From Aureimonas ureilytica (lineage in GTDB: Bacteria; Pseudomonadota; Alphaproteobacteria; Rhizobiales; Rhizobiaceae): a stretch of DNA of 64,000 bases. Made by a program: the position numbers and the translations under genes. The notes beneath the pieces are model-generated. The model ran no database searches and was not told where the DNA came from. It saw nothing but the letters and a program-made list of their open reading frames with translations. This document shows positions 3,497 to 45,796 of this stretch, piece after piece (the stretch's first letter is position 1; each line of letters starts with the position of its first letter). The stretch spans positions 1 through 64,000 of the forward strand of contig NZ_LDQA01000057.1 of assembly GCF_001475935.1 (NCBI RefSeq), given 5' to 3'.

Positions 3497-4120
3497 TCAT
3501 GCGGGGTCGGCCCCCAGAAGGCTGGCGATCATACGGTGAAGGTAGGGGCGCAGCGTTTCGGCTGGGCGCTCGGGCTCAAGGCGAAGCCGCATGACGAGGC
3601 CGTCGCCCATACCCATGAGAAAGGTCAGCGCGAGGTCGAGATCGAGATCGGCGGCGATCTCGCCACGCGAGCGCGCCTCCTCCAGAACCACCTGAAACCG
3701 TTGGCGCACTTCGGCCTCGATCGCCTGGAAGCGCTCGCCGACAGCCGTGTTGCGCAGCGATTCCGAGCAGATCTCCACCATCAGATTGCCGGTCTCCGGG
3801 TCGCGGGCCTGCGCGAGATAGGTCAGCGCGACATCGGTGATGCGGCGGGCGATCGGGCCGGGCGCGGCGAGTTGGGCGAGGCAGGCGCTCGCGGCCAGCC
3901 GCTCCTCCTCGGCGATCGCCTCGATGATCGCGTCCTTGGAGGGATAATAGCGATAGAGCGCGCCCGGGCTCATCTTCGCTTCGGCGCAGATTTCGCTCAT
4001 CGACGCGCGATGAAAGCCCGAGCGCGAGAAGCAAAGCCGCGCGGCGCGAAGGATGTGGTCCTTGCGCGAGAGGGGCGCGCTCGCCGCCTCCGGCAATTCG
4101 GCAGTATCGGTGAAGGTCAT
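3497..4120 (-). CDS. TetR/AcrR family transcriptional regulator of the adjacent RND operon
   Basis: This is a ligand-responsive repressor, likely of its own operon. The 207-residue protein has the TetR helix-turn-helix at about residues 40-65 (MSEICAEAKMSPGALYRYYP), followed by a helical ligand-binding domain. I chose the start at 4120 because the longer frame from 4156 would place the palindromic operator inside the coding sequence. The gene lies immediately upstream of the adaptor on the same strand, which is the usual layout for local efflux control. The inducer is unknown. Confidence 0.92.
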   Translation of the reverse strand: MTFTDTAELPEAASAPLSRKDHILRAARLCFSRSGFHRASMSEICAEAKMSPGALYRYYPSKDAIIEAIAEEERLAASACLAQLAAPGPIARRITDVALTYLAQARDPETGNLMVEICSESLRNTAVGERFQAIEAEVRQRFQVVLEEARSRGEIAADLDLDLALTFLMGMGDGLVMRLRLEPERPAETLRPYLHRMIASLLGADPA

Positions 4121-4140
4121 GGAATCAGCAGAATGAGAGC

Positions 4141-4152
4141 GAACGATCGTTC
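4141..4152. promoter_or_regulatory. Candidate TetR operator (perfect 12-bp palindrome)
   Basis: GAACGATCGTTC is a perfect palindrome 20 bases upstream of the chosen TetR start. Its composition resembles operators of TetR-type efflux repressors. Autoregulation of the whole regulator-adaptor-pump unit is inferred from position. Confidence 0.6.
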
Positions 4153-4231
4153 TCATATCATTCGCAACTTATCAGGTCCAGATACGATCAACTTTCCGTT
4201 GGCTTGAAACTGATGTCGGGCTGGCGAAGGT

Positions 4232-4495
4232 TCAGGGGTCGAGCGGCCGCATCTGGTCGAGAATGTCGCGCGCGGCGTCGTTGCGTGCGAGCAGCAGTTC
4301 GATAGAGGAACGCTGGAACATCGTGACCGCCATCAGCAGTCGCAATTCGGGCTGATGCGGACTGGAGAGAATCATCGGCGCGGGCTGGAGCGGCGGGTCC
4401 CGGTCGTCGACGTCGGTTTCCGCGCGCACGTCTTCGCCGGAAAGCCGATGGGGCTCTCCCTGCGAGCGGACGTTGGGGAAGCGCAGAATGTTCAT
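4232..4495 (-). CDS. Small protein of unknown function (87 aa)
   Basis: I do not recognise this protein. It starts MNILRFPNVRSQGEPHRL, has an acidic middle (ETDVDDRDP) and ends in an amphipathic helical stretch (LLMAVTMFQRSSIELLLARN) without a signal peptide or a clear membrane helix. I chose the ATG at 4495 because a GGA-containing site lies just upstream and the sequence further up looks non-coding. It stands alone between the efflux operon and the ffh promoter region on the other strand. The protein-like composition supports a real gene, but function is unknown. Confidence 0.6.
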   Translation of the reverse strand: MNILRFPNVRSQGEPHRLSGEDVRAETDVDDRDPPLQPAPMILSSPHQPELRLLMAVTMFQRSSIELLLARNDAARDILDQMRPLDP

Positions 4496-4871
4496 GGTTC
4501 CAGCGGGCGTCGGAATGGTCTGACCGAAGAGTAACTTCGGACGTTTAAGAAAGTGGCGACAGGAATGCGTAGGACGTGGAATGCAGCGTGTCTTCGCGCC
4601 AAAACTCTGAGAAAGCGTGAAGAGGGACCGGTTTTGCACCGGATGAGGCCGTGGCTCTTGACTTTCGAGCCCCGAGCAGCCTTAAAGACCCAAACCTTGC
4701 GACCGTTCCGACCGCAATCCGCCGACCATGTCCCTCGTTTGCCGAGCCGCATGGAGGTCCCCATCCGCCAGCGAGATTCGCCCGCGGATGCGATCCGCTT
4801 TGGCGCTGCGGCTTGGAAGGGGCGCTTCCGGTTCCCATTCTTCCGCTGGTCGGAAGAACAAGGACGATGCG
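4496..4871. other. Divergent intergenic region upstream of ffh (376 bp)
   Basis: This gap separates the 87-aa gene (minus) from ffh (plus). It holds a small hairpin (CCGAAG/CTTCGG, 4524-4540) just upstream of the minus-strand gene and a candidate ffh promoter at 4657-4686. No convincing coding frame is seen. Confidence 0.6.
4657..4686 (+). promoter_or_regulatory. Candidate sigma-70 promoter for ffh
   Basis: CTTGACT at 4657-4663 matches the alphaproteobacterial -35 (CTTGAC). A 17-base spacer leads to CTTAAA at 4681-4686 as a weak -10. The distance to the ffh ATG is about 185 bases. Confidence 0.4.
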
Positions 4872-6437
4872 ATGTTTGAATCCCTCCAGGACCGCCTCGG
4901 GTCCATCCTGAACGGCCTCACCGGCCGCGGCGCGCTGTCGGACTCCGACGTGTCGGCCGCGCTGCGCGAGGTTCGTCGGGCGCTTCTGGAAGCGGACGTG
5001 TCGCTGGAAGTGGTGCGCTCCTTCACCGACCGCGTGCGTTCCAAGGCCGTGGGCGCCGAGATCGTCAAGTCGATCAAGCCCGGCCAGATGGTGGTCAAGC
5101 TCGTTCATGACGAGCTGGTCGCGACGCTCGGCTCCGATCAGGTGGCGATCGATCTGAACGCGCCTTCGCCGGTCACGATCATGATGGTCGGCCTGCAGGG
5201 CTCGGGCAAGACCACCACCACGGGCAAGATCGCCAAGCGCCTGACGGAGCGCCAGAAGAAGCGCGTCCTCATGGCCTCGCTCGACACGCGCCGCCCGGCT
5301 GCGCAGGAGCAGCTGCGCATTCTGGGCGAGCAGACGGGCGTCGCCACCCTGCCGATCATCGCGGGCCAGGACCCTGTCGAGATCGCGGCCCGCGCCGCGC
5401 AGGCCGCCCGCCTCGGCGGTTACGACGTTCTCATCCTCGACACCGCCGGCCGCACGCATATCGACGAGCCGCTGATGGTGGAAATGGCCGAGATCAAGGC
5501 CAAGTCCGCCCCGCATGAAATCCTGCTCGTCGCCGATTCGCTGACCGGTCAGGACGCGGTGAATCTGGCTCGCTCCTTCGACGAACGCGTCGGCATCTCG
5601 GGCATCGTCCTGACCCGCGTCGATGGCGACGGGCGCGGCGGCGCCGCGCTCTCCATGCGCGCCGTTACCGGCAAGCCGATCAAGCTGATCGGCACGGGCG
5701 AGAAGATGGACGCGCTGGAGGATTTCCATCCCGCGCGCATCGCCGACCGCATCCTTGGCATGGGCGACATCGTTTCGCTGGTCGAGCGGGCCGCCGAAAA
5801 CATCGACGCGGAAAAAGCCGCGGCGATGGCCAAGAAGATGCAGTCCGGCAAGTTCGATCTGAACGATCTGGCCGACCAGATCGGCCAGATGCAGAAGCTC
5901 GGCGGCATGGGCGGCGTCATGGGCATGATGCCCGGCATGGCCAAGATGAAGGACCAGATCTCGGCCGCCGGTCTCGACGACAAGTTGCTCAAGCGCCAGC
6001 TCGCGATCATCTCGTCCATGACGAAGTGGGAGCGCGAGAACCCGGACCTGCTCAAGCACTCGCGCAAGAAGCGCATCGCGGCGGGCTCGGGCACGGATTC
6101 GGCCGACATCAACAAGCTTCTCAAGATGCACCGTCAGATGGCGGACATGATGAAGGCGATGGGCGGCAAGGGCGGCAAGGGCGCCGGCATCATGGGCAAG
6201 CTCATGGGCGGCCTCGGCTCCAAGATGGGTCTTCCGCCCGGTCTCGGCGGCGGTATGCCGGACCTCTCCAAGATGGACCCCAAGAAGCTCGAAGAGATGG
6301 CCAAGTCCCTTCAGAAGGGTGGCCTCGGGGGAATGGGCGGCTTGCCCGGCGGCCTGCCTCCCGGCCTTGGCGGCGGTGGGCTTCCCGGCCTGCCTGGCCT
6401 TCCCAAGCTTCCCGGTCTTCCGGGCAAGAAACGATAG
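4872..6437 (+). CDS. ffh: Signal recognition particle protein Ffh (SRP54)
   Basis: Ffh is the SRP GTPase that binds signal sequences and SRP RNA and docks ribosomes at FtsY for membrane insertion. In the 521-residue protein the N domain covers about 1-90. The G domain has the P-loop at 107-119 (GLQGSGKTTTTGK), DTAGR at 190-194 and TRVD at 248-251. The Met-rich M domain follows at roughly 300-460. The tail is unusually rich in Gly, Pro and Leu, a common alphaproteobacterial extension. I chose the ATG at 4872 because AGGA lies just upstream and the family N-terminus (MFESLQDRLG) starts there. rpsP follows 100 bases downstream. Confidence 0.97.
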   Translation: MFESLQDRLGSILNGLTGRGALSDSDVSAALREVRRALLEADVSLEVVRSFTDRVRSKAVGAEIVKSIKPGQMVVKLVHDELVATLGSDQVAIDLNAPSPVTIMMVGLQGSGKTTTTGKIAKRLTERQKKRVLMASLDTRRPAAQEQLRILGEQTGVATLPIIAGQDPVEIAARAAQAARLGGYDVLILDTAGRTHIDEPLMVEMAEIKAKSAPHEILLVADSLTGQDAVNLARSFDERVGISGIVLTRVDGDGRGGAALSMRAVTGKPIKLIGTGEKMDALEDFHPARIADRILGMGDIVSLVERAAENIDAEKAAAMAKKMQSGKFDLNDLADQIGQMQKLGGMGGVMGMMPGMAKMKDQISAAGLDDKLLKRQLAIISSMTKWERENPDLLKHSRKKRIAAGSGTDSADINKLLKMHRQMADMMKAMGGKGGKGAGIMGKLMGGLGSKMGLPPGLGGGMPDLSKMDPKKLEEMAKSLQKGGLGGMGGLPGGLPPGLGGGGLPGLPGLPKLPGLPGKKR

Positions 6438-34642: not shown

Positions 34643-36160
34643 TCACCGCACCAGCGTGTCATCCTCGTGGGTCAGACGAAGTTCGAGAAGGCGTTCCATG
34701 CCTTCCAGTTTCAGAGCGATTGCGGCCGGGTCGCGAGAGCGCTCGCACCGTTCGAGAGGATCGTCGACGAGATCGAAGAGGACCGGCGGCAGACCGGCGA
34801 AATGGACGTATTTGAAGCGCTCCGTGCGAACCACGTGGAGGCTGAGGCGGTTAGCCGGCAGGGCGAAGGCGTTCTGCGTCTGGCCTCGGGCGGGATCGCG
34901 GAAGTCGAAGCTCCAATGGGCGGCGTCCCGCCAGTTCTCCGGTCGCTCGCCACGGCAGAAGGGCAGCAGGCTGCGGCCATCGACATTGGGCGAGGGAGCG
35001 ACACCGACGAGGTCGAGGATCGTCGGCAGGATGTCGATGGACTGGCTGAAATCCCGAATGCGACGCCCCCGCGCCGCATCGGCCTCGGGGCGGGGATCGC
35101 GCAGGATCAGCGGGATGTGCGCGGACTGGTCGAAATAGCCGAGCTTGCCGAGAAGCCCGTGGTCGAAGAGCTGCTCGCCATGGTCGCCCGACAGGACGAT
35201 CAACGTCCGATCCCAGCGCCCGGCCGCCTTCAGCGCGGCGACGATCCGCCCGAGATGATGGTCCACCTCGGCGACCAAGCCCGCATAGGTGGCCCGCAGC
35301 CGGCGCGCCAGACGCTCGTCGGCCGCCGCTGCGAGACCGCAGAGGCCGGGTGCGAAGCCGGCGAGATCGACGGTGCGCTGGTGGAAGGCGATCAGCGGAT
35401 GCTGGGCGGCGTCCCGCTCGAAATCGCCCCAGCCGATCGGAAGGGCGATGTCGGCCGGGTCGAGCCGCGAATGGAACGGCTCGGCGACGGCGAAGGGCGG
35501 ATGCGGCGCGATGAAGGAGATATGGGCGAAAAAGGGCTCGGGGCCGGTGACGGACAGCCAGTCGAGGAAACGGTCGGTCAGGAAAGCCGTCTCGGAATCC
35601 TCCGCCGCGAAGACGGCGGGCGCGCCGAAGGGCCTTTGCGCGAAGATCGCCTCGCGCCCGCGCTCGGGGTTGGGTACGTCGTAGCCGCGCTTCTTCAGGT
35701 GTGCGAGCCAAGGCCCGGCGCGCTCGGTGAGCAGCGTGTCGGCCTCGATCCCGGGCGCGAGGCCTTCGTAATCGCCGCATGCGGGGTCGCCGGGTTGGAG
35801 CGTGCGAGGGTCGGCCGTGGTGTCGGTATAGCCGAAGAGAACAGGCCGATAGCCGGCCCGTCGCGCCTCGGAAAAGACGGTGGGGTGGCGCGCGTCGAGC
35901 GGGGTGCCGTTCTGGATCGAGCGATGCTTGTGGGGATAAAGGCCGGTGTGCAGCCCCGCCCGCGCCGGACCGCAGGGATAGGCCTGCGTGAAATGGCGCT
36001 CGAAGGTGACGCCGTCCTGCGCGAGCGCCTCGATATGCGGGAGCGGCAAGGGCGCGCGGCCGGGGCCGTGATCGGCGCGCCATTGGTCGGCGGTGACGAA
36101 CAGGATGTCGTAGCCTCGGGCGGCTTCCGGGCGTGAGGGGGCCTCAGATGGGGAAGACAT
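34643..36160 (-). CDS. Phosphonate monoester hydrolase / sulfatase-fold enzyme (alkaline phosphatase superfamily)
   Basis: The predicted role is hydrolysis of phosphonate monoesters (possibly also phosphodiesters or sulfate esters). The 505-residue protein has the formylglycine motif YPCGPARAGLHTGLY (C-x-P-x-R, Cys63), an N-terminal metal Asp in VTADQWRADH and SGDHGEQL later. From memory, segments such as QNGTPLDARH, GDHGEQLFDHGLLGKLGY, FSQSIDILPTILD and RFKYVHFAGLPPVLFDL resemble Rhizobium phosphonate monoester hydrolase more than choline sulfatase. There is no signal peptide, so it should act in the cytosol. Its start lies inside the ABC ATPase 3' end (17-base overlap), tying it to the phosphonate operon. 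Confidence 0.85.
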   Translation of the reverse strand: MSSPSEAPSRPEAARGYDILFVTADQWRADHGPGRAPLPLPHIEALAQDGVTFERHFTQAYPCGPARAGLHTGLYPHKHRSIQNGTPLDARHPTVFSEARRAGYRPVLFGYTDTTADPRTLQPGDPACGDYEGLAPGIEADTLLTERAGPWLAHLKKRGYDVPNPERGREAIFAQRPFGAPAVFAAEDSETAFLTDRFLDWLSVTGPEPFFAHISFIAPHPPFAVAEPFHSRLDPADIALPIGWGDFERDAAQHPLIAFHQRTVDLAGFAPGLCGLAAAADERLARRLRATYAGLVAEVDHHLGRIVAALKAAGRWDRTLIVLSGDHGEQLFDHGLLGKLGYFDQSAHIPLILRDPRPEADAARGRRIRDFSQSIDILPTILDLVGVAPSPNVDGRSLLPFCRGERPENWRDAAHWSFDFRDPARGQTQNAFALPANRLSLHVVRTERFKYVHFAGLPPVLFDLVDDPLERCERSRDPAAIALKLEGMERLLELRLTHEDDTLVR

Positions 36161-37181
36161 GGGCGTCCTTCGGGTCGATCGCGACATGGACGCGGGCGCC
36201 GGGCGCAAGGTCCGCGCAGTCGCGGCTCGGCCAGTCGACGCGCAGGCGCAGCGGCCCTTCCTCGCCCTTCAGCTGGAGGTAGAAGCGCGTCGTCTGGCCC
36301 TGAAACAATCGCGCCTCGACTTCGGCGGGCTCGCCGACCCCCGAGGCATTCCGGTGGATGTCCTCGGCGCGCAGGAAGATGCCGGCGCGCTCGGGGCTGC
36401 CGGCCACCTCGAACTCGATCGCGCCGAGCCGGGCGCGCCCGCCCCGCACGGGCAGTTCGAGCCGGTTGCGACCGCCGATGAAGCCGGCGGTGAAGGCGCT
36501 GCCGGGGCGTTCATACAGCGCGTCGGGGCTCGCCACCTCCTCGAGCCGCCCCGCGCGCATGACGGCGATCCGGTCCGCCATGGCGAGCGCCTCGGACTGG
36601 TCGTGGGTCACGATGATCGCGGTGGTGCCGACCCGCTGCTGGATGCGGCGGATTTCGTCGCGCAGGTGGTCGCGCACCACGGCGTCGAGCGCCGAGAGCG
36701 GCTCGTCGAGAAGCAGGACGTCCGGGTCCGAGGCCAGCGCGCGGGCGAGCGCGGTGCGCTGCTGCTGGCCGCCCGAGAGCTGGTTGGGATAATGGCCGGC
36801 GCGCTCGGACAGGCCCACGAGCTCGATAAGTTCGCCCGCGCGGGCGCGGATCTTGGCGGCGTCCGCGCCCCGCACCTTCAGGGGGAAGCCGATATTCTCG
36901 GTGACCGTCATGTTGGGAAAGAGCGCATAGGCCTGGAAGACCATGCCGATCGGGCGCTTCTGCGTCGGCATATGCGTGATGTCCCGGCCGCCGAAGAGAA
37001 TGCGCCCTTCGTCGGGCGAGGCGAGGCCCGCGATGCAGCGCAGGAGCGTGGTCTTGCCGCAGCCCGACGCGCCGAGCAGAGCGATCATCTCGCCCGCCGC
37101 GATGCTGAGGTTCACGTCCTGAAGCGCCGGCTTGCCGTGATAGTGCTTGCCCAGCCTCTGAATGTCGATCGTGGCGCTCAC
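36144..37181 (-). CDS. ABC transporter ATP-binding protein (phosphonate/aminoethylphosphonate-type importer)
   Basis: This ATPase energises the importer encoded upstream. The 345-residue protein has Walker A GASGCGKTT near residue 36, Q-loop VFQAYALFPNMTV, signature LSGGQQQRTALARALA, Walker B LLLDEPLSALD and the H-loop THDQSEALAMADRIAV. A C-terminal TOBE domain (about 270-345) is typical of the PotA/FbpC/PhnT class. It overlaps the permease gene by 4 bases. Substrate is inferred from neighbours. Confidence 0.92.
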   Translation of the reverse strand: MSATIDIQRLGKHYHGKPALQDVNLSIAAGEMIALLGASGCGKTTLLRCIAGLASPDEGRILFGGRDITHMPTQKRPIGMVFQAYALFPNMTVTENIGFPLKVRGADAAKIRARAGELIELVGLSERAGHYPNQLSGGQQQRTALARALASDPDVLLLDEPLSALDAVVRDHLRDEIRRIQQRVGTTAIIVTHDQSEALAMADRIAVMRAGRLEEVASPDALYERPGSAFTAGFIGGRNRLELPVRGGRARLGAIEFEVAGSPERAGIFLRAEDIHRNASGVGEPAEVEARLFQGQTTRFYLQLKGEEGPLRLRVDWPSRDCADLAPGARVHVAIDPKDAHVFPI

Positions 37182-38074
37182 GGCTTGGCTCCCTTCCCGG
37201 CGCCGGCGGGCGCCGAGGCGCTGCGTCCGGCGTTGAAGTAGACGACGGCGACCGACAGGAGAAGCGTCACCGCGAAGTTGATCATGGTCATGACGGCGAG
37301 CACGTTGAAGTCGGCGTCAGCGCTTTTGAGCATGTTGAGGAGATAGAGCTGCACCGTCTCGAAGCGGCTGCCCGTCGTGATCTGGACGATCGCGATCTCG
37401 TTGAAGGAGACGGCGAAGGCGAGGATCGCGCCGCTGGCAAGGCCCGGTCCGATGCTGGGCAGGATCACATGGCGCAGGGTCTGCCCGGTCGAGGCGCCGC
37501 AGGTGCGCGCGGCTTCCGTCAGGTCCTCGACCTTGGCCGCCGCCATGGCACCGTCGATCGACCAGTAGACGAAGGAGAAGGCGACCGCGACATGGGCTGC
37601 CAGAAGCAGGCCGAGCGTGCCCTGAGCCTGCGGCACATAATCGCCCGTCGCGCGCAGGAGCCCGAAGGCGATCACGAGCAGCGGCATGGCGAAGGGGATC
37701 GCCGCCAGCGTTTCCAGAACGGGGCGGATCGCCGGGTTGCGCACGCGCTGCCAGTAGACGGCGGGCGCGACGAGCGAGAGGTCGATCACCGCCACCGCCA
37801 CTGCGAGGCCCAGCGAACGCAACAGGACGGCGCGGAAGCGCTCGTCGGAAAAGGCGTTGATCCAATGGGCCAGCGTGTAGCCGTCCGGCAGGACTTCGCT
37901 CGTCCAGCGCGTGGCGAGACTGTAGAGAAGGACGGCCGCGATGGGCAGCAGGATGTAGAGCGCGGCGAGGATCAGGAGCGGCAGGGCGCTCCAGCCCGCG
38001 CGCACCGGGCCTTCCCGGTGGCGGCGAAAGGTGCGCGCGCGGCCGGGCGCGGTTTCGAGCGTCACGTCAGCCAT
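37178..38074 (-). CDS. ABC transporter permease (second membrane subunit)
   Basis: The 298-residue protein has about six helices and the EAA loop EAARTCGASTGQTLRHVILP that contacts the ATPase. It belongs to the PotC/PhnV-like class. I chose the ATG at 38074; it overlaps the preceding permease gene by 13 bases and the ATPase start by 4, which indicates a tightly coupled operon. Confidence 0.9.
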   Translation of the reverse strand: MADVTLETAPGRARTFRRHREGPVRAGWSALPLLILAALYILLPIAAVLLYSLATRWTSEVLPDGYTLAHWINAFSDERFRAVLLRSLGLAVAVAVIDLSLVAPAVYWQRVRNPAIRPVLETLAAIPFAMPLLVIAFGLLRATGDYVPQAQGTLGLLLAAHVAVAFSFVYWSIDGAMAAAKVEDLTEAARTCGASTGQTLRHVILPSIGPGLASGAILAFAVSFNEIAIVQITTGSRFETVQLYLLNMLKSADADFNVLAVMTMINFAVTLLLSVAVVYFNAGRSASAPAGAGKGAKP

Positions 38075-38964
38075 TTCAGACCTCGGCGGGTGAAGAGGCG
38101 GAACAGGAGAAGGCTGACCATCGCGAAGATCATCAGGATCACCGCCATGACGGGCATACGCTGGCTGCCGAACAGCGAGCCTTGCAGCGTGCGGCTCATG
38201 TCGATCGTGATCAGCGGATAGGCGGCGGGCGATCCGCCCATCAGCGCGACGGGCGTTCCGTACATGCCGACCGACCAGGTGAAGATCAGCAGCCAGGAGG
38301 CCAGAAGAAAGGGACGCAGCACGGGCCAGCCGACATGGCGCCAGAACTGGAGGAGGGTCGCCGAGCAGCATTGCGCGGCCTCCCACCACTCCTCGCGCAG
38401 GAGCGCCATTGAGGGGAGCGAGAAGAGCACGAACATGGGGACGTTGGTGTATTCATAGGCCAGCACCAGCCCCCAGAAGGAGTTGGCGGCGGGCGGCACC
38501 ATGTCCAGCCCGGCGGCGCGAACCATCAGCGTCACCATGCCATAGGTGCCGAGCGCGGCCACGAAGGCGAAGCCGATGCCGATGCCGCTGAAATTGGCCG
38601 CGACGTTGAGGAGGCCGAGATACAGCGAGCGGCTGCCGCGCGCCATGCGCGACAGAACCCAGGCGAGCGGCGCGCCGATGAGAAGCGCGATCGTCGCCAC
38701 GCTGAAGCCGAGAAGCAGACTGTTGAGAATGGCGGCCCGTGCGGTGCGCGAGCCCAGGACACCGATCCAGTTGCCGAGCGTGAAGCCGGTGCCGGTGGCA
38801 TCGGCGAAGCTCGCCCGCAGCATGACGAAGCAGGGCGCGAGCAGAAGAGCGCCGGCCACGAGGATCAGCGGAAGCGCCGGCAGCCAGTCGCCGACGAGCC
38901 GCGCGGCGCGAGACGGGCGGGCCGCCTCGGGCGGCGGGGGGACGACGGGCGTGCCGGCGCTCAT
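38062..38964 (-). CDS. ABC transporter permease (first membrane subunit)
   Basis: The 300-residue protein has about six membrane helices after a Pro-rich N-terminus and an EAA-like loop (EEWWEAAQCCSATLLQFWRH). It is of the PotB/PhnU-like class. It starts 5 bases after the binding-protein gene stop. With the next permease it forms the heterodimeric channel. Confidence 0.9.
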   Translation of the reverse strand: MSAGTPVVPPPPEAARPSRAARLVGDWLPALPLILVAGALLLAPCFVMLRASFADATGTGFTLGNWIGVLGSRTARAAILNSLLLGFSVATIALLIGAPLAWVLSRMARGSRSLYLGLLNVAANFSGIGIGFAFVAALGTYGMVTLMVRAAGLDMVPPAANSFWGLVLAYEYTNVPMFVLFSLPSMALLREEWWEAAQCCSATLLQFWRHVGWPVLRPFLLASWLLIFTWSVGMYGTPVALMGGSPAAYPLITIDMSRTLQGSLFGSQRMPVMAVILMIFAMVSLLLFRLFTRRGLKWLT

Positions 38965-38969
38965 GGCCG

Positions 38970-40103
38970 TCAGCCTCCCGCGACCTGTTCCTGCCAGACG
39001 CCCGCGATCGCGGCGACGTCGAGATCGGCCCAGTTCTTGATGACGTGGACACCTTCATACTGCGCGTCGGGCAGCCAGCCCGCCTTGGCGTCGGCCGGCA
39101 GGTCGAGATCGCCGAGCACCCAGCGGATCGGACGCGCGCCGAACTTGGCGAAGGCGATCTGCGCCTCGTCGGACAGAACGAAGTCGAGCAGCAGCTTGCC
39201 CGCGTCCATCTTGGCTGTGTTGTAGCGGTTGATCATCAGCGCCGAGGGCGCATAGATCGTGCCCTTCGGGATCACGACCTCGGCGTTGACGCCCTTGGCC
39301 TTCACCTGGGCGGCGGCGGCGATGCAGTTGAAGTCGTACTTGATCTGGATCGGCACCTCGCCGCGCTCCAGCGTCTGGGCGTTCTTGGCGGCCGTCGAGA
39401 ATTGCGGCAGCATCTTCCTGGCGAACTCGGCGCCCGGCGCGAGGTCGGTCTCGCTGCCGCCATGAGCATAGGCCCAGGCAATGAAAACGGCGAGATCGGT
39501 GCCGCCCGAGCCACCGGCATCGATCGAGCCGATGAGGCCCTTGTATTCCGGCTTCAGGAGATCGTCCCAAGAGCGCGGCACGTTCTTGACGACGTCGGTG
39601 TTGACCACGAAGGCGGGAACGCCCGTATAGGTCGCGACCCAACCGCCTTGCTTGCCCTTGAGACCGGCGGGCAGCTTCGCGGCCAGCGGCGGCATGAAGG
39701 GCGGCACCACGCCGCGCGCGTCGGCCACGGGGCCGAAGAGAATGCCGATATCGGCCGAGATGGCGACCGGGTTGTTCTTCTCGGCGTCGAACTTGGTGAT
39801 CTCTTCCAAGGAGCTCATGTCGGTATCGACATGGTTGATGGTGAAGCCGTACTTGGCCGCCATCTTCTGGAGGACTTCGCCGTAATTGGCCCAGGAGTCC
39901 GGCATGCCGTAGCTCACGAACTCGGCGGCCTCGATCTTGGCCTTGCTGATATCGACCGGCGCGGACCAGTCGCTTTCGGCGGCGAAGGCGGCAAGGCTCC
40001 GGGGCCGGCCGAGGCCGAAGGCGGCGGCGAGGCCGAGCGCGCCGGTGCCGACCAGGAAGCGGCGACGGTCAACCGCCGCGCGCAGAAGCTTGGATGTCGT
40101 CAT
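38970..40103 (-). CDS. ABC transporter periplasmic substrate-binding protein, Tat-type signal
   Basis: This is the solute receptor of the operon's importer. The 377-residue protein has a twin-arginine signal (DRRRFLVGTGALGLAAAFGLG at about 12-32), so export in folded form is likely. The mature part is of the iron/putrescine/phosphonate receptor type (IGSIDAGGSGGTDLAVFIAW, EVPIQIKYDFN). By context (PhnX, FAD oxidoreductase, phosphonate ester hydrolase) the ligand is probably 2-aminoethylphosphonate, an N-alkyl derivative or a phosphonate ester. Confidence 0.9.
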   Translation of the reverse strand: MTTSKLLRAAVDRRRFLVGTGALGLAAAFGLGRPRSLAAFAAESDWSAPVDISKAKIEAAEFVSYGMPDSWANYGEVLQKMAAKYGFTINHVDTDMSSLEEITKFDAEKNNPVAISADIGILFGPVADARGVVPPFMPPLAAKLPAGLKGKQGGWVATYTGVPAFVVNTDVVKNVPRSWDDLLKPEYKGLIGSIDAGGSGGTDLAVFIAWAYAHGGSETDLAPGAEFARKMLPQFSTAAKNAQTLERGEVPIQIKYDFNCIAAAAQVKAKGVNAEVVIPKGTIYAPSALMINRYNTAKMDAGKLLLDFVLSDEAQIAFAKFGARPIRWVLGDLDLPADAKAGWLPDAQYEGVHVIKNWADLDVAAIAGVWQEQVAGG

Positions 40104-40166
40104 GGGAGATGTCCTTGGTTTGGGCGATCCGCCCGACGTTTCGGGCCGGAAGGAAGGGGAAAGGGG

Positions 40167-40970
40167 TCAGGGCCGTTCGCCGCGGGTGATGCGCGCCTCG
40201 ATCTCGTCGATCACGGGCAGAAGGTCGGCGACGCTGTCGATGACGACATGCGCGCCATGGGCTTGGAGGGCGGCGCGGGCGCGCTGGCGCAAGGCGGCGC
40301 GCTCGTCCTGCGACAGCGCGGCCAGCTCGGCGAGGGACAGGCCCGCCTCGTTGCCGCTGAGCGCGACGCCGACCGTCCAGCAGCCGGCATGGACACCTTC
40401 CTCGATGCCGACGCCGGTGTCGTCCACCTTGACGGTGCGCCACGCCGGCCAGACGCCGAGTTCGAGAAAGGTGCGATACATGTTCATCGGGCTCGGGCGG
40501 CCCTCGGGCAGGTCGCCGGCGCAGACGAGATTGTCCGGCGAAAAGCCTTGAGCGGCCGCCAGCGGCAGGAGCCGCTCCATGATCGAGCGCGTGTAACCGG
40601 TGGTGGAGCCGATGCGGCAGCCGCGCTCGCGCAGCGCCGCCACCGCCTCGGCCGCGCCGGGCACGAGCTCGGCATAGTCGGCAACGGCCGCCTCGTTCAT
40701 TGGCACGAAGATCTCGTAGATCCGGTCCACGGCCGCGCCGTCCGCCGCCGTCCCCTGCGCCGCTTCCCAGGCCTTCGCGACGCGCGGCTCGGCGAGCATG
40801 GCAGCGATATGGTCCCATTTCGGCCGGCCCATCGGCCCGCGCGCTTCCGCCACGGAGACGGCGACGCCGAAGCTCGCGAAGGCTTCCACGAAGACGCCCA
40901 TCGGGGCTCGCGAGCCGAAGTCGATCACGGTGCCGGCCCAGTCGAAGACGACGGCCTTGATCTCGCTCAT
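40167..40970 (-). CDS. phnX: Phosphonoacetaldehyde hydrolase (phosphonatase)
   Basis: PhnX cleaves the C-P bond of phosphonoacetaldehyde to acetaldehyde and phosphate through a Schiff base. The 267-residue HAD-family protein has the nucleophile motif VVFDWAGTVIDFGS (Asp10), the Schiff-base Lys in GPMGRPKWDHI (Lys51), STTGYTRSIMERLLP and VKVDDTGVGIEEGVHAG. Its ATG overlaps the upstream oxidoreductase stop by 4 bases. No PhnW transaminase is encoded in the window, so its aldehyde substrate must come by another route or from elsewhere in the genome. Confidence 0.95.
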   Translation of the reverse strand: MSEIKAVVFDWAGTVIDFGSRAPMGVFVEAFASFGVAVSVAEARGPMGRPKWDHIAAMLAEPRVAKAWEAAQGTAADGAAVDRIYEIFVPMNEAAVADYAELVPGAAEAVAALRERGCRIGSTTGYTRSIMERLLPLAAAQGFSPDNLVCAGDLPEGRPSPMNMYRTFLELGVWPAWRTVKVDDTGVGIEEGVHAGCWTVGVALSGNEAGLSLAELAALSQDERAALRQRARAALQAHGAHVVIDSVADLLPVIDEIEARITRGERP

Positions 40971-42130
40971 CGCGCGATCTCCTTGTGTTGGAACAGGTCG
41001 GCTCCGAGGCCGAAAAGCTCGCCGACGACCTCCTCGCCGAGCGCGAAGGCGGTGGAAGCGCCCGTGCCGCCGGTGACGATGGCAAGGCGCACGTTGGGCT
41101 CGGGCGCCTCCACCAGAACGGTGCGGTCGGTGGCCGAGGCGTAGGTGCCGATCCAGCGCTCGGCGACATGGCGGTTCGGCAGATCGAGCACCGCGTCGAG
41201 TTCCGACAGGATCAGCGCGTCGAAGCGCTCGCTGGCGAAGGGCGCGGGGTGGTCGCCATAGACATGGCTGTCGCCGACCACGAGCGAGCCGTCGGCCGAC
41301 TGAACGGCGATCAGATGAATGCCGGCCGCCCGCTGTTCGGCGGCGTCCCGGTCCAGTCGTCGGCCCAGCGACGCGGCCTCGGGGAGATCGGCAAAGCCCT
41401 CGTAGCGGGCAAAGGACAGATCCGACATCACGGCCGCGCCGAGCCGCACGGGATGCGCTGGGGCGACGCGCAGCATCTGGAGCGTGCAGATGCGGATGCC
41501 GGCGGAGCGGATGCGCTCGGGATAAAGCGTGGCAAGATCGTCGCCGGGGCAGACGACGACGCGCGCGGCGCGCACGAGACCCGCCGAGGTCGCGAGTCCC
41601 TCCGGCACGACCGCCTGAACGGCAGTGCGCCAATGGAAGGTGACGCCGTGCGCTTCCGCCAGCCAGTCGGCCAGTCGGGGCACCGCTTCGCGGGATTCGA
41701 CGCGCAGCTCGTGCGGGCTGTGCAGCACGGCGCGCGCCTTATCGAGGCGGAGCGCGGGAACGAGAGTGGCGGCCTCGCTCACCCCGATCATCCGACACCC
41801 TTCGCCCATGTCGGTGCGCAGGAAGGCGTGGAGAACCTCGGCCGCTTCCTCGCGGTATGCCGGCATGACGAGCCCGTGATGCAGGACGGGAATGCCCGCG
41901 AGGGGGGCGATTTCGGCCCAGACGTCGCGGCTGCGGCGCGCCCGCGCCCAATGCGGGCCGGCCTTTTGCCCCGTCACGGTGACGAAGCCGAAATTGCGGA
42001 TCGAGGCGCCGGTGGCCGCCGCGCCGCGATCGACGACCGCCACGCTGAGGCCTTGCCGCACGGCCGCCAGAGCCATTCCGAGGCCGACAATGCCGGCGCC
42101 CACGATGGCAAGATCATAAGAACGGGTCAT
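40967..42130 (-). CDS. FAD-dependent amine oxidoreductase, phosphonate-cluster type (TIGR03364-like)
   Basis: This DAO-family flavoenzyme (387 aa) has the FAD fold GAGIVGLGMALAA at 11-23, the RNFGFVTVTGQ segment and the C-terminal IVTGGTGASTAFALGEEV. I recall the TIGR03364 subgroup as a recurrent neighbour of PhnX. Related flavoenzymes (PbfC/PbfD) have been reported to oxidise 2-aminoethylphosphonate or its N-methyl form, giving phosphonoacetaldehyde. Translational coupling to phnX and absence of phnW support that role here; exact substrate is inferred. Confidence 0.85.
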   Translation of the reverse strand: MTRSYDLAIVGAGIVGLGMALAAVRQGLSVAVVDRGAAATGASIRNFGFVTVTGQKAGPHWARARRSRDVWAEIAPLAGIPVLHHGLVMPAYREEAAEVLHAFLRTDMGEGCRMIGVSEAATLVPALRLDKARAVLHSPHELRVESREAVPRLADWLAEAHGVTFHWRTAVQAVVPEGLATSAGLVRAARVVVCPGDDLATLYPERIRSAGIRICTLQMLRVAPAHPVRLGAAVMSDLSFARYEGFADLPEAASLGRRLDRDAAEQRAAGIHLIAVQSADGSLVVGDSHVYGDHPAPFASERFDALILSELDAVLDLPNRHVAERWIGTYASATDRTVLVEAPEPNVRLAIVTGGTGASTAFALGEEVVGELFGLGADLFQHKEIAR

Positions 42131-42266
42131 AGCGATGTCGAAAAGAAGCCAAAGGGCAGCACCATCTGCCGGTGCCGCCCTTCTAATCCTCCGATATGAC
42201 GCTTCTATGAATGCTAAGTAAGTATAGATTTTATATATATATGGCGATCTTGGTCGATACTCGGTT
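42131..42266 (-). promoter_or_regulatory. AT-rich promoter region of the phosphonate operon
   Basis: The 136-base gap between the LysR gene and the oxidoreductase contains the most AT-rich run in the window (alternating TA at 42231-42242, with TATACT on the minus strand at 42221-42226). Such a segment is a likely LysR-controlled promoter for the seven-gene operon. Confidence 0.45.
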
Positions 42267-43160
42267 TCAGAATCGGGCGGGCGCCGATCCCTGCACTTTC
42301 TCCCCCGCTATGGCCAGAAAGGCCGCGACGGCGGAGTGGCCGACATATTCGGGAAGGGTCACGAGATAGTGGCCGATATCCGCGCCGGCCCCCTCCAGAA
42401 TGGCGACATCGATATGCTCGTCGGCCTCGACCTCGCCTTCCACGGCGATGGCCAGCCCGATGCCGACGGCGGCAGCGGCATAGGCGACGTCCAGTGTCGC
42501 GACTTCCATGACCGGATCGAGCTGGACGCCTGCGTCGCGGGCGAGCGTATCGAGCAGCGCGCGCGTGCCCGACAGCTTGTTCCACAGGACCATCTTCTGC
42601 CTGTCGAGGTCCCGGAGGGAAAGAATTCCCGCTTGCAGAAGCGGATGCCCCTTGCGGCCATAGACGAGGATGCGGCAGCGGACCAGTTCGAAGCAGGCAA
42701 AGCGCGGATCGGGCGCGGGGCGGGAGATGGCGGCGACGTCCAGCTCTCCCTTCAGAACCGCCTCCATCAGTTCGGCCGAAGGCCCGCCTCTCGTCACCAC
42801 GCGAATGTTGCCGTGGCGGCTGACAAAGGCGGAGAGCATCGGCATGATCAACCGATGGGCACTGAAGCCGATCGACAAACGCCGCTCCGCCGACCCGCCC
42901 GCCGCCGCCATGTCACGCTCGATCTCGTCGAGACAGGCCAGCGCGATGCGGATCTTGGCGATCAGCGGCTCGGCATCGGCCGCCACACGCACCGAATGCC
43001 CCTCACGGTTGAAGATGCGGAACGGCGCGGCCGCTTCGAACGCCTGAACCTGCGTCGAGACGGTCGGCTGGCTGACGCCGATCTCGCGCGCTGCCTTGGA
43101 GAATTGCCCAGTGCGGGCCAGGGCATCGACGGCCCGAAGCTGGGCAAGAGTGGGCGCCAT
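42267..43160 (-). CDS. LysR family transcriptional regulator of the phosphonate operon
   Basis: This is a predicted effector-responsive activator. The 297-residue protein has the N-terminal winged HTH (LAQLRAVDALARTGQFSKAA, then GVSQPTVSTQVQAFE) and a periplasmic-binding-like effector domain. It lies directly upstream of the oxidoreductase-phnX-transporter string on the same strand. A phosphonate or phosphonoacetaldehyde effector is inferred from position. Confidence 0.9.
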   Translation of the reverse strand: MAPTLAQLRAVDALARTGQFSKAAREIGVSQPTVSTQVQAFEAAAPFRIFNREGHSVRVAADAEPLIAKIRIALACLDEIERDMAAAGGSAERRLSIGFSAHRLIMPMLSAFVSRHGNIRVVTRGGPSAELMEAVLKGELDVAAISRPAPDPRFACFELVRCRILVYGRKGHPLLQAGILSLRDLDRQKMVLWNKLSGTRALLDTLARDAGVQLDPVMEVATLDVAYAAAAVGIGLAIAVEGEVEADEHIDVAILEGAGADIGHYLVTLPEYVGHSAVAAFLAIAGEKVQGSAPARF

Positions 43161-43400
43161 GCAGATGTCTCCGAGTTCGGCAGGGGTCCTTCCTTAACAT
43201 TGGTTCGCGCGCACGCGGAGGCGTTGCCCCCATCCGCCGTCAGGTCCGATCCGCTTGTGGGGCTGAGGCCGTCACGGACCATGGGCAAGGACCGTGATCG
43301 GCCTACCCCGTTTGACGGCTTGCTTCGCCTCCCGTCAGCCGCTTGTCATCTCCATCGCCTAGGAATCCATCGTCCCCAACCGATCGGCAAAGGCCCCGGC

Positions 43401-44069
43401 ATGGATTCTGCTTGTCAGCCCGAACTGGTGATCTTCGATTGCGATGGCGTTTTGATCGACAGCGAAGCGATCCAGTGCCGGATCGATGCGCAGGAACTGA
43501 CGAAACTTGGATTTCCGGCCAGTCCCCATGACTTCGCGCGAGCCTTCGTCGGCCGAACCACAAGAGACATGATCGAGCATGTCGAGCGGTCGCTCGGGCG
43601 GGCGCTGCCCGATCGTTTCGAAGCCGACCGGGATCACCTGCTGGAACAGGCCTACCGCACCGAGCTGCGGGCCATCGAGGGCGTCGTGGAGGTGTTGGAG
43701 GTCGTCGGTATCCCGACCTGCGTGGCATCGAACGCCGCGATGGGGCACCTACGATATGTCCTGGAGTCGACCCGTCTTTTGCCTCATTTCGAGGGACGAT
43801 TGTTCGGTGTCGATCTGGTACCCCGTCCCAAGCCCGCGCCGGACCTCTTTCTCCTGGCCGCCAGAACCATGAATGTCGCGCCGGCCAGATGCCTCGTTAT
43901 CGAAGACAGCGAAACCGGCGTTCGGGCCGCGGTCGCGGCAGGTATGCCGGTCTTCGGCTTTCACGGGGGAGGGCACTGCTACCCCGGCTATGAGGCGCGG
44001 CTGATGGATGCCGGGGCGATGCGGGTCTTTTCGGACATGAGAGAACTGCCGGCCCTTTTGCGGCTTTAG
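43401..44069 (+). CDS. HAD-superfamily phosphatase / beta-phosphoglucomutase-like hydrolase
   Basis: The 222-residue protein is a subfamily IA HAD phosphatase. It has the nucleophile motif VIFDCDGVLIDSE (Asp13, Asp15), the Ser/Thr motif VASNA, the Lys region VPRPKPAPDLF and the metal motif VIEDSETGVRAAVAAG. AAAGG lies 7 bases before the ATG. It is divergent from the LysR regulator and precedes a phosphate transporter, so Pi recovery from a small phosphoester is plausible; the substrate is unknown. Confidence 0.87.
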   Translation: MDSACQPELVIFDCDGVLIDSEAIQCRIDAQELTKLGFPASPHDFARAFVGRTTRDMIEHVERSLGRALPDRFEADRDHLLEQAYRTELRAIEGVVEVLEVVGIPTCVASNAAMGHLRYVLESTRLLPHFEGRLFGVDLVPRPKPAPDLFLLAARTMNVAPARCLVIEDSETGVRAAVAAGMPVFGFHGGGHCYPGYEARLMDAGAMRVFSDMRELPALLRL

Positions 44070-44179
44070 GGCACGCGACGTCACGCCGTTCCCCTCGTCG
44101 CGCCGAGGGATCCGGCCGCTATCGCGCCTCTGTCATATGGGCGCGCTACGATCTCTCGTTCACAACTTCGAGAGGGATC

Positions 44180-45796
44180 ATGACGATCACCGCTGAACGA
44201 ACCGCCGCAGACGTCGCAGTAAGACGCCCCGATCTCGATCGCGGTCTGGGAGCCGCCGGACGATGGGGCTTCGTGGTGGCGACAGGGGCCGCCATCGCCT
44301 ATGTCGCCTATAGCATCTACGCCGACGCCAGCGCCGCCGGAGTCCAGCCGACCACCTATCTGCCCTTCATTCTCCTGTTCGTCTCGCTGCTGATCGCATT
44401 GGGCTTCGAGTTCGTGAACGGCTTCCACGACACGGCCAACGCGGTCGCAACCGTGATCTACACCCATTCGCTGCCCGCCCATGTCGCGGTCGTCTGGTCC
44501 GGGGTCTTCAACTTCCTGGGCGTGCTCGTGTCGAGCGGTGCGGTGGCCTATTCGATCATCTCGCTCCTGCCGGTCGAACTCATCCTGCGCGTCGGGTCGC
44601 AGGCCGGGTTCGCGATGGTCTTCGCGCTCCTGATCGCCGCCATCGTCTGGAATCTCGCCACCTGGTATTTCGGCCTGCCATCGTCCTCGTCGCACACTTT
44701 GGTGGGCTCGATCATCGGCGTCGGCGTCGCCAACGCGGTCTTGAGCGGTCACGGCGGCACCGCCGGGGTCGAGTGGGGCGAGGCGGCCAAGGTCGGCTAT
44801 TCCCTGCTTCTTTCGCCGATTCTTGGTTTTGCCCTGGCCGCCATCCTGTTCAAGGTCATGCGCGTCCTCGTGCGCAACGAGGCGCTCTATCGCGAGCCGA
44901 GCGCGAACACGCCGCCTCCGGCCTGGATTCGCGGACTTCTGATCTTCACCTGCACGGGCGTGAGCTTCCTGCACGGCTCCAACGACGGGCAGAAGGGCAT
45001 GGGTCTCATCATGCTCATCCTCATCGGAACGGTGCCGACCGCCTATGCCCTGAACCGGGCCGTGCCCGAAAGCTACATGCCTGAGTTCCACCAGCGCGCC
45101 GAGGCCGTCGTCTCCGCGCTGGCCCCGCGCGGCCCCTACCGCGTCGACGCCGCGGTGACGGCCGAGGCGGCCTTGCAGCGCTATATCTCGCAGAAGACCC
45201 TTCAGCCCGACACGCTGCCGGCGCTTGCCTCGCTCGCCACCGATATCGACAACGAGGTCTCGCGCTACGGCTCGCTTCAGGCCGTGCCGGCGGCCGTCAC
45301 GAAGAACGTGCGCAACGCCATGTATCTCGCGTCGGAAGCGATCAAGCGTCTTCAGGCCGACGAGACGGTTTCCCTGACTCCCGACGAGACCTCGGCCCTG
45401 TCGGCCTTCAAGGCCTCGCTGGATGCCGGCACGCGCTTCATCCCGACCTGGGTCAAGGTCGCCGTGGCCTTTGCGCTCGGCCTCGGCACGATGGTTGGCT
45501 GGAAGCGCATCGTCGTGACGGTGGGCGAGAAGATCGGCAAGCAGCACCTCACCTATGGACAGGGCGCATCCGCCGAGCTGGTCGCCATGGCGACGATCGG
45601 GCTGGCGGACCGGTTCGGCCTGCCGGTTTCGACGACGCATGTGCTGTCGTCGGGCGTCGCAGGCACGATGGTCGCCAACGGCACCGGCCTGCAGATGAGC
45701 ACGGTGCGCAATCTCGGCGCGGCCTGGCTCCTGACCCTGCCGATCTCGATGCTGCTGTCGGCGGGCCTCTACGCCCTGTTCCTGCAACTGGCCTGA
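44180..45796 (+). CDS. pit: Inorganic phosphate transporter, PiT family
   Basis: This is a low-affinity proton/metal-phosphate symporter of the inner membrane. The 538-residue protein has two inverted PiT halves with the signatures GFEFVNGFHDTANAVATVIY and SFLHGSNDGQKGMGLIM, PSSSSHTLVGSIIGVG, and the second-half VSTTHVLSSGVAGTM. A long central cytoplasmic loop (about residues 305-415) is typical of bacterial Pit. GAGAGGG lies before the ATG. It follows the HAD phosphatase at 110 bases. Confidence 0.95.
   Translation: MTITAERTAADVAVRRPDLDRGLGAAGRWGFVVATGAAIAYVAYSIYADASAAGVQPTTYLPFILLFVSLLIALGFEFVNGFHDTANAVATVIYTHSLPAHVAVVWSGVFNFLGVLVSSGAVAYSIISLLPVELILRVGSQAGFAMVFALLIAAIVWNLATWYFGLPSSSSHTLVGSIIGVGVANAVLSGHGGTAGVEWGEAAKVGYSLLLSPILGFALAAILFKVMRVLVRNEALYREPSANTPPPAWIRGLLIFTCTGVSFLHGSNDGQKGMGLIMLILIGTVPTAYALNRAVPESYMPEFHQRAEAVVSALAPRGPYRVDAAVTAEAALQRYISQKTLQPDTLPALASLATDIDNEVSRYGSLQAVPAAVTKNVRNAMYLASEAIKRLQADETVSLTPDETSALSAFKASLDAGTRFIPTWVKVAVAFALGLGTMVGWKRIVVTVGEKIGKQHLTYGQGASAELVAMATIGLADRFGLPVSTTHVLSSGVAGTMVANGTGLQMSTVRNLGAAWLLTLPISMLLSAGLYALFLQLA

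Follow-up and report, generated by a model that had tools for sequence, protein, structure and literature searches.

An eight-gene phosphonate cassette in Aureimonas ureilytica that combines a PbfD-PhnX pathway with its own importer and a phosphonate monoester hydrolase

Results

The DNA analyzed here is a stretch of 64,000 nucleotides from Aureimonas ureilytica (positions 1 to 64,000 of contig NZ_LDQA01000057.1, assembly GCF_001475935.1), in the following called the window, which lies in contig C137 of a genome assembly with 183 contigs, a total of 5,012,346 bases and a completeness of 99.46%. On its minus strand, at positions 34643-43160, the window carries a cassette of eight genes related to phosphonate use. 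Starting from a LysR-type regulator (lysR, 42267..43160), these encode an FAD amine oxidoreductase of the PbfD type (40967..42130), the phosphonoacetaldehyde hydrolase PhnX (40167..40970), an ATP-binding cassette (ABC) importer consisting of a substrate-binding protein (38970..40103), permease 1 (38062..38964), permease 2 (37178..38074) and an ATPase (36144..37181), and, as the last gene, a D-type phosphonate monoester hydrolase (PMH, 34643..36160). Counted from the PMH gene backwards, the gaps are -17 bases (PMH/ATPase), -4 (ATPase/permease 2), -13 (permease 2/permease 1), +5 (permease 1/binding protein), +63 (binding protein/phnX), -4 (phnX/pbfD) and +136 bases (pbfD/lysR). An earlier note on this DNA had described the same genes, at this place and on this strand, as tightly packed, which is borne out by gaps of -17 to +63 bases within the unit and 136 after lysR.

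Both enzymes expected to act on the carbon skeleton belong to their families by profile search, with the flavoenzyme reaching 428.7 bits for TIGR03364 (cut-off 285.1) and PhnX 340.9 bits for TIGR01422 (cut-off 220). When PhnX was aligned to solved phosphonatases, the two expected residues, located in the motifs FDWAGT and GRPKWDHI, were both present and matched the same residues of 3iru; we take the Asp of FDWAGT to be the nucleophile and the Lys of GRPKWDHI to form the Schiff base. The aminotransferase PhnW, which the earlier note had found missing from the operon, is also missing from the genome as far as matches over the cut-off are concerned. Four matches were obtained at E 0.001, the best with 28.2 of the required 400.8 bits, and as all 14 control genomes also match below the cut-off these are taken as other aminotransferases. 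A search for PhnA in the source genome at E 1e-20 yielded no match.

In place of PhnW, the earlier note had proposed that the flavoenzyme makes phosphonoacetaldehyde oxidatively, and this proposal agrees with the assigned family. According to the available text of PMC10590968, PbfC and PbfD enzymes oxidize N-methyl-2-aminoethylphosphonate (N-methyl-AEP) to phosphonoacetaldehyde; two PbfD members were reported to do so, one of them acting efficiently on 2-aminoethylphosphonate (AEP) as well. For PbfD2 of M. fucicola, turnover of AEP was only 4-fold slower than that of N-methyl-AEP, PbfD1 of A. baumannii carries the TIGR03364 annotation, and most pbfD2 genes are located in clusters without phnW (PMC10590968). 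By family, the enzyme of the window is therefore predicted to convert an aminophosphonate to phosphonoacetaldehyde. In a census of 22 other PbfD loci from 385 sampled genomes of the class (stretches of 7.5-19 kb), phnX was present in 17, and phnW in none when searched with one Rhizobium PhnW, a query which does find the phnW of genome G071. The absence of PhnW is thus ordinary, as PhnW-less combinations of PbfD and PhnX have been published (PMC10590968, PMC11203657) and the census agrees with them. In Comamonas endophytica (stretch L210, 7213-9988) a gene for a phosphonate degradation HD-domain oxygenase was found divergent to pbfD-phnX.

The eight genes also recur together in other genomes. 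A blastn comparison of the 21.5-kb stretch L050 from A. endophytica with the whole window gave a single block above 80 bits (window 43174-34652), which shows 81.5% identity over 8547 columns and extends from 14 bases before lysR to a point 9 bases short of the PMH end. The flanks of L050, approximately 3 kb ahead of this block and 10 kb behind it, did not align to the window. Likewise, tblastn matched the HAD, PiT, cobS and cobT genes flanking the cassette in the window neither in L050 nor in the stretch L022 of Aureimonas sp. AU20 (the starts of cobS and cobT were chosen by hand). As the block ends where the cassette ends and the flanks do not align, the eight genes appear to be one unit found in different places. 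Ratios of non-synonymous to synonymous substitution rates (dN/dS) between the window and A. endophytica range from 0.145 to 0.229 for the eight genes, and with 0.178 the PMH is as constrained as PhnX (0.174). All eight genes occur in identical order in Ciceribacter (L044) and on a Pararhizobium plasmid (L023), while in Xinfangfangia (L048) seven genes were found in cassette order with lysR unmatched. Aureimonas sp. AU20 possesses a broken operon, in which lysR, permease 1 and permease 2 survive as pieces, the ATPase is spread over two frames and the PMH still has an open reading frame; its 21-kb stretch gave no match to pbfD, phnX or the binding protein, and at the limits used neither PhnX nor PbfD was matched in its genome. 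These remains are located on a plasmid (L022, 8260-11482) beside a glycerol-3-phosphate gene set that comprises glpD/glpK and an ABC importer. The cassette is real, conserved and mobile-looking, and it is a variant of the known PbfD-PhnX pathway.

The last gene was compared with solved PMHs and sulfatases, the names of 2vqr, 2w8s, 4uph, 4upi and 4upl being used as in the available text of PMC12421950 and PMC5488252. Over most of its length the window PMH matches 4uph (ArPMH) with 439 bits, 2vqr (RlPMH) with 381 bits, 2w8s (BcPMH/PehA) with 365 bits and 4upk with 334 bits. We take 4upk to be SpPMH, its PDB file naming a phosphonate monoester hydrolase. The formylglycine motif C63-G-P-A-R67 (35960..35974), which should provide the nucleophile precursor, is in place by alignment, and the N-terminus, as read from the sequence, is not hydrophobic. 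The CGPAR motif reported in the earlier note was thereby confirmed, the N-terminus agrees with the lack of a signal peptide stated there, and the enzyme is predicted to be cytosolic. PMHs and related arylsulfatases are described to differ at two positions, with Tyr and Asp or Thr in the former and Lys and His in the latter (PMC5488252). At these positions the window protein has Tyr111 and Asp113. In the alignment it combines CxPxR, a Gln beside the metal Asp, the metal-site His, Tyr for Lys(A) and Asp for His(A) and shares the formylglycine motif, the metal ligands and the Lys(A)-site Tyr with all four solved PMHs. Judged by its residues, the window hydrolase is a D-type PMH, its Asp being the residue that most PMHs have at the His(A) site. 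The Lys(A) site is occupied by Tyr in 58 of the 59 aligned PMH rows (Phe in L049), and the His(A) site by Asp in 56, by Thr in two (L027 and, as expected, RlPMH) and by Ser in one (L191, in which gaps replace D25 and Q26 as well). For the PehA model NF045661, the window protein scores 459.1 bits, about half of the cut-off of 900.

It would also be conceivable that this enzyme is a sulfatase with no link to phosphonates, as it contains the Pfam Sulfatase domain and members of the family are described as promiscuous in the available text of PMC5488252. We regard this as very improbable, given that Tyr111 and Asp113 replace the Lys and His of arylsulfatases (PMC5488252, PMC12421950) and that solved PMHs score 334-439 bits compared to 197 and 181 bits for the SpAS sulfatases 4upl and 4upi. 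The earlier assignment as a PMH-like hydrolase thus stands, with the active-site signature of PMHs and not of arylsulfatases.

A PMH tree of 59 rows, inferred by a quick method with SH-aLRT as the only support and with 15 of 56 inner branches open, places the window PMH in a separate clade of 17 rows (SH-aLRT 100), apart from the known PMHs. This clade consists of the window, AU20, L023 and 14 relatives from a scan of genome contigs that yielded 134 relatives, of which 80 were kept. Identity to the window PMH is at least 51% for those 14 and at most 31% for the other 66, a gap which is partly the scan's own making, as one of two short motifs was required. Within the clade, five PMHs belong to a full operon, two to an importer-PMH arrangement without pbfD-phnX, one to a PMH-phnX pair and one to the broken operon. 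In four Ancylobacter genomes PMH and pbfD-phnX are located apart. Across the 59-PMH tree the link to phnX or pbfD requires at least five changes of state, counted with AU20 left out, with all other rows as unlinked, and with L173-L201 (29 rows) judged by 1.5-kb flanks and PbfD coordinates.

The two importer-PMH arrangements without adjacent pbfD-phnX belong to genomes with other phosphonoacetaldehyde routes. In the Devosia metagenome-assembled genome L047, a convergent pbfA-phnY-phnA set (683, 784 and 535 bits; cut-offs 525, 635.65 and 407.55) lies approximately 60 bases from the PMH, with a phn_lysR beyond it (350 bits, cut-off 341.1), and PhnX, PhnW, PhnJ and PbfD were unmatched in this genome at the set limits. 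This locus had been regarded as counter-evidence to a phosphonate role, a view overturned by the PhnA search, which placed pbfA-phnY-phnA next to the PMH. A gene with an ADP-ribosylglycohydrolase domain is located upstream of its importer-PMH block (3674-5788). Rhizobium sp. Root1203 (L039) carries lysR-importer-PMH, and elsewhere in its genome PhnW, PhnA and PhnY are encoded consecutively, all over cut-off; PhnX was unmatched at 1e-25, and PbfD matched only below the cut-off (138.6 bits). PMH and phnX are adjacent in Arboricoccus (L042), and genomes G053, G195 and G299 contain pbfD-phnX-PMH with PMHs that are 40-45% identical to that of the window and lie on other branches, G053 on one distant branch and G195 together with G299 on another. 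Altogether, PMH adjoins phnX without an importer of the window type in four genomes.

PMHs of other branches were found beside importers as well. Behind RlPMH (L025, 8989-16201) and behind the PMH of L027 (8986-15975), both T-type enzymes of the RlPMH/PehA kind, lie ABC importer genes of another annotation, and cytosolic PMHs next to importers may therefore form a wider pattern. In L036 (8668-14280, minus strand) a PMH of another branch comes directly after a different ABC set resembling AEP importers, whose binding protein and ATPase share 25 and 42% identity with those of the window.

Importer and regulator of the window resemble AEP families, yet score below their cut-offs. The binding protein, in which a hydrophobic stretch follows a twin-arginine at the N-terminus (read from the sequence), contains the SBP_bac_6 domain (PF13343), the Pfam family shared by PhnS of PhnSTUV, AepX of AepXVW and AepS of AepSTU, and its best solved relative is 5t1p, which we presume to be Campylobacter Cj0727. 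The best NCBIfam names of the importer are names of AEP importers, but none of the model cut-offs is reached: PhnS scores 55.4 of 395.3 bits, PhnT2 377 of 457.7, PhnT 285.3 of 499.15, PhnV 75 of 358.7, and PhnU 39 and 34.3 of 283.45. Permease 1 has no Pfam domain at 1e-3 and weakly resembles PhnU2 as well as permeases for molybdate and sulfate; it is kept across the importer loci, with a remnant in AU20. Permease 2 (BPD_transp_1) accounts for the PhnV match, and the ATPase (ABC_tran and TOBE_2) for the PhnT2 match. LysR, with the domains LysR_substrate and HTH_1, reaches 163.6 of 341.1 bits for TIGR03339 (phn_lysR). The importer is rare: only the source genome gave a match when 385 class genomes were searched at E 1e-60 and 317 family genomes at E 1e-70.

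Matches to the binding protein on plasmids comprised 10 records, of which four (L023, L203, L204 and L205) share at least 60% identity. Two of the six weaker records, from a P. aeruginosa plasmid and from Meiothermus, were analyzed further; in these, importer genes of approximately 39% identity lie beside small PF01663 hydrolases of the phosphodiesterase type (L211, 6944-12134, and L212, 6929-11614). Both might represent phosphoester uptake operons, and as importer relatives next to hydrolases of the alkaline phosphatase superfamily, these two cases would fit a phospho- or phosphonoester as cargo. A third weaker record, from Aeromonas, is without annotation.

PMH and PbfD also tend to occur in the same genomes. 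In the class sample, PMH (E 1e-90 or better) was detected in 10 of 23 PbfD genomes compared to 51 of 362 others (p 0.001), and without the source genome in nine of 22 (p 0.003); the 10 genomes span six of the 17 PbfD-containing families. In a set of 61 relatives, PMH (E 1e-60) was present in all four genomes with PbfD over cut-off and in seven of the other 57 (p 0.0006). These counts may be low, as scoring covered only part of the first-look candidates in each genome (at most five in the PbfD search of the class). For the 17-row clade, 15 genomes were searched (L050 was left out and L023 is a plasmid only). PhnX was found in 10, PbfD over cut-off in nine, PhnJ in 12 and PhnW over cut-off in two of these 15, and PhnA in two of six searched. 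All 15 contain at least one of PhnX, PhnA and PhnJ, a count given without a background rate.

Discussion

The oxidase-PhnX half of the cassette is already published; less ordinary is its pairing with an own importer and a PMH. Closest is the PbfD2-PhnX pathway (Zangelmi et al. 2023, PMC10590968), in which a PbfD-type oxidase is encoded beside phnX. For M. fucicola, PbfD2 forms phosphonoacetaldehyde oxidatively from AEP and N-methyl-AEP, with no phnW in cluster or genome, and pbfD of the window fits this subgroup by its phnW-less context alone. The hpnW-phnX operons of Achromobacter, where a flavin oxidoreductase replaces phnW beside phnX, are comparable (PMC11203657), but PhnW is encoded elsewhere in both of these genomes; that paper also mentions an Ochrobactrum strain lacking phnW altogether. 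The words monoester and sulfatase are absent from the main text of PMC10590968, and sulfatase, monoester and PehA from that of PMC11203657. Within the main text of the open-licence literature searched, including PMC10590968, PMC10574752, PMC12366243, PMC8154272 and PMC11203657, no PbfD-PhnX operon was found to be described with a PMH. Of the path which the earlier note had not seen described as one operon, the replacement of PhnW by such an oxidase beside PhnX is not new.

We lean, with considerable reserve, towards the view that the eight genes form one cassette drawing phosphorus from an O-monoester of AEP or N-methyl-AEP. Binding protein, permeases and ATPase would import a small ester of this kind, and the formylglycine PMH would cut its P-O-C bond in the cytosol to release the free aminophosphonate. 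The PbfD-type flavoenzyme would then oxidize the amine to phosphonoacetaldehyde, thus replacing PhnW, and PhnX would split the latter into acetaldehyde and phosphate, while LysR would probably answer to the imported compound. Gene content, order, conservation, family membership and the absence of PhnW are observed, and the chemistry of PbfD and PhnX, as well as that of PMHs on model substrates, is in print for relatives. The ester itself, the importer cargo, the order of steps and the substrate of the PMH are inferred.

Several observations weigh against this scheme. The strongest is that two strains of R. tumorigenes (L203, L204) and R. rhododendri (L205) carry lysR-pbfD-phnX-importer on plasmids with PMH unmatched in the 19-kb stretches searched, so that PMH is present in only one (L023) of the four plasmid records with at least 60% binding-protein identity; unless a PMH is encoded elsewhere, as in the four Ancylobacter genomes, the importer must there carry something that PbfD and PhnX use unaided. 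All cases would be accommodated by an importer that accepts AEP in free as well as in esterified form. The neighborhood comparison proposed in the earlier note gave a divided result. PMH does recur with the importer and with phosphonoacetaldehyde routes, but it was found in just two of the 22 other PbfD loci, both of one genus, and the binding protein of the window in none of them. In addition, PMH is beside PbfD in only three of 61 PMH genomes of the class sample, source genome included, 13 of the 23 PbfD genomes are without PMH, relatives G040 and G055 with sub-cut-off PbfD matches showed no PMH either, and eight of the 17 clade PMHs have no tested phosphonate or importer gene in the flank examined. 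The Fisher tests on the co-occurrence of PMH and PbfD moreover ignore relatedness. As PhnJ of a carbon-phosphorus lyase is encoded in the source genome (G000:C116:765-1577), the cassette is not its sole possible phosphonate route. A structure model of the binding protein from six sequences was unusable (pLDDT 35.7). Finally, PMHs also cleave phosphodiesters. The part of the earlier interpretation that has phosphonate esters as the cargo is thus supported less firmly than the rest.

The Rhizobium operons would be readily explained if the importer carried free AEP or N-methyl-AEP and the PMH were an optional add-on, for esters arriving otherwise, or a passenger. This would also fit with the absence of PMH next to pbfD-phnX in most of the census and with AepX and AepS being AEP importers of the same Pfam family according to the available text of PMC8316502. 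However, PMH stays with the importer in Devosia and Root1203, where pbfD-phnX is not adjacent, it is under purifying selection, and its frame is open in the otherwise broken AU20 operon; we consider this explanation unlikely.

Alternatively, the operon might serve general phosphorus scavenging, with importer and PMH handling phosphodiesters, for example glycerophosphodiesters, and PbfD-PhnX handling AEP, the genes being together because they answer the same need. PMHs are described as specific for phosphonate monoesters and phosphodiesters in the available text of PMC5649143 (substrate classes in PMC5488252), and the distant importer relatives beside PF01663 hydrolases have no phnX or pbfD match within 7 kb on each side. 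Yet the importer-PMH pair accompanies phosphonoacetaldehyde routes that differ from case to case, namely PbfD-PhnX within the operon, an adjacent PbfA-PhnY-PhnA set in Devosia and, in Root1203, PhnW-PhnA-PhnY at another place in the genome, and in the four genomes described above PMH is next to phnX with no such importer, so that scavenging of phosphodiesters appears rather unlikely. BcPMH, for its part, was reportedly discovered as a glyceryl-glyphosate hydrolase.

If the scheme of ester uptake and cytosolic hydrolysis is extended, the cassette could represent a full cytosolic route from intact AEP O-esters to phosphate, reveal the natural substrate of one PMH branch and define a new type of ABC importer, which we offer tentatively and with slightly more doubt than confidence. 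Candidate esters would be glyceryl-AEP or sugar-AEP from phosphonolipids and phosphonoglycans, phosphonates being built into lipids and glycans (PMC8316502). The hydrolytic AEP pathways in the papers cited begin at the free compound, and PMHs were assayed there with model substrates; if true, the cassette would add a first step for bound phosphonate material and give PMHs a natural role.

Additional observations

Two genes divergent to the cassette, at 43401-45796 on the plus strand, encode a hydrolase of the HAD family and a phosphate transporter of the PHO4 (PiT) type and have no match in L050. Searching the window for Pho boxes (at most three mismatches) gave four matches where 1.94 were expected, and at least four occurred in 11 of 100 shuffles. 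One match lies ahead of lysR (43332-43349) and one ahead of the PHO4 transporter gene (44119-44136), and none was found in the lysR-pbfD gap; these counts are taken as evidence neither way. The lysR-pbfD gap itself (42131..42266, minus strand) contains an AT-rich stretch, including TATA- and TTCATA-like elements, which is common to the four gaps aligned, those of the window (42131-42266), L050 (3895-4033), L044 and L023, and is a candidate LysR operator. The same gap of the window holds a terminator-like hairpin of 14 pairs (42151-42183, minus strand), one of six such sites in the scanned stretch where 4.5 were expected.

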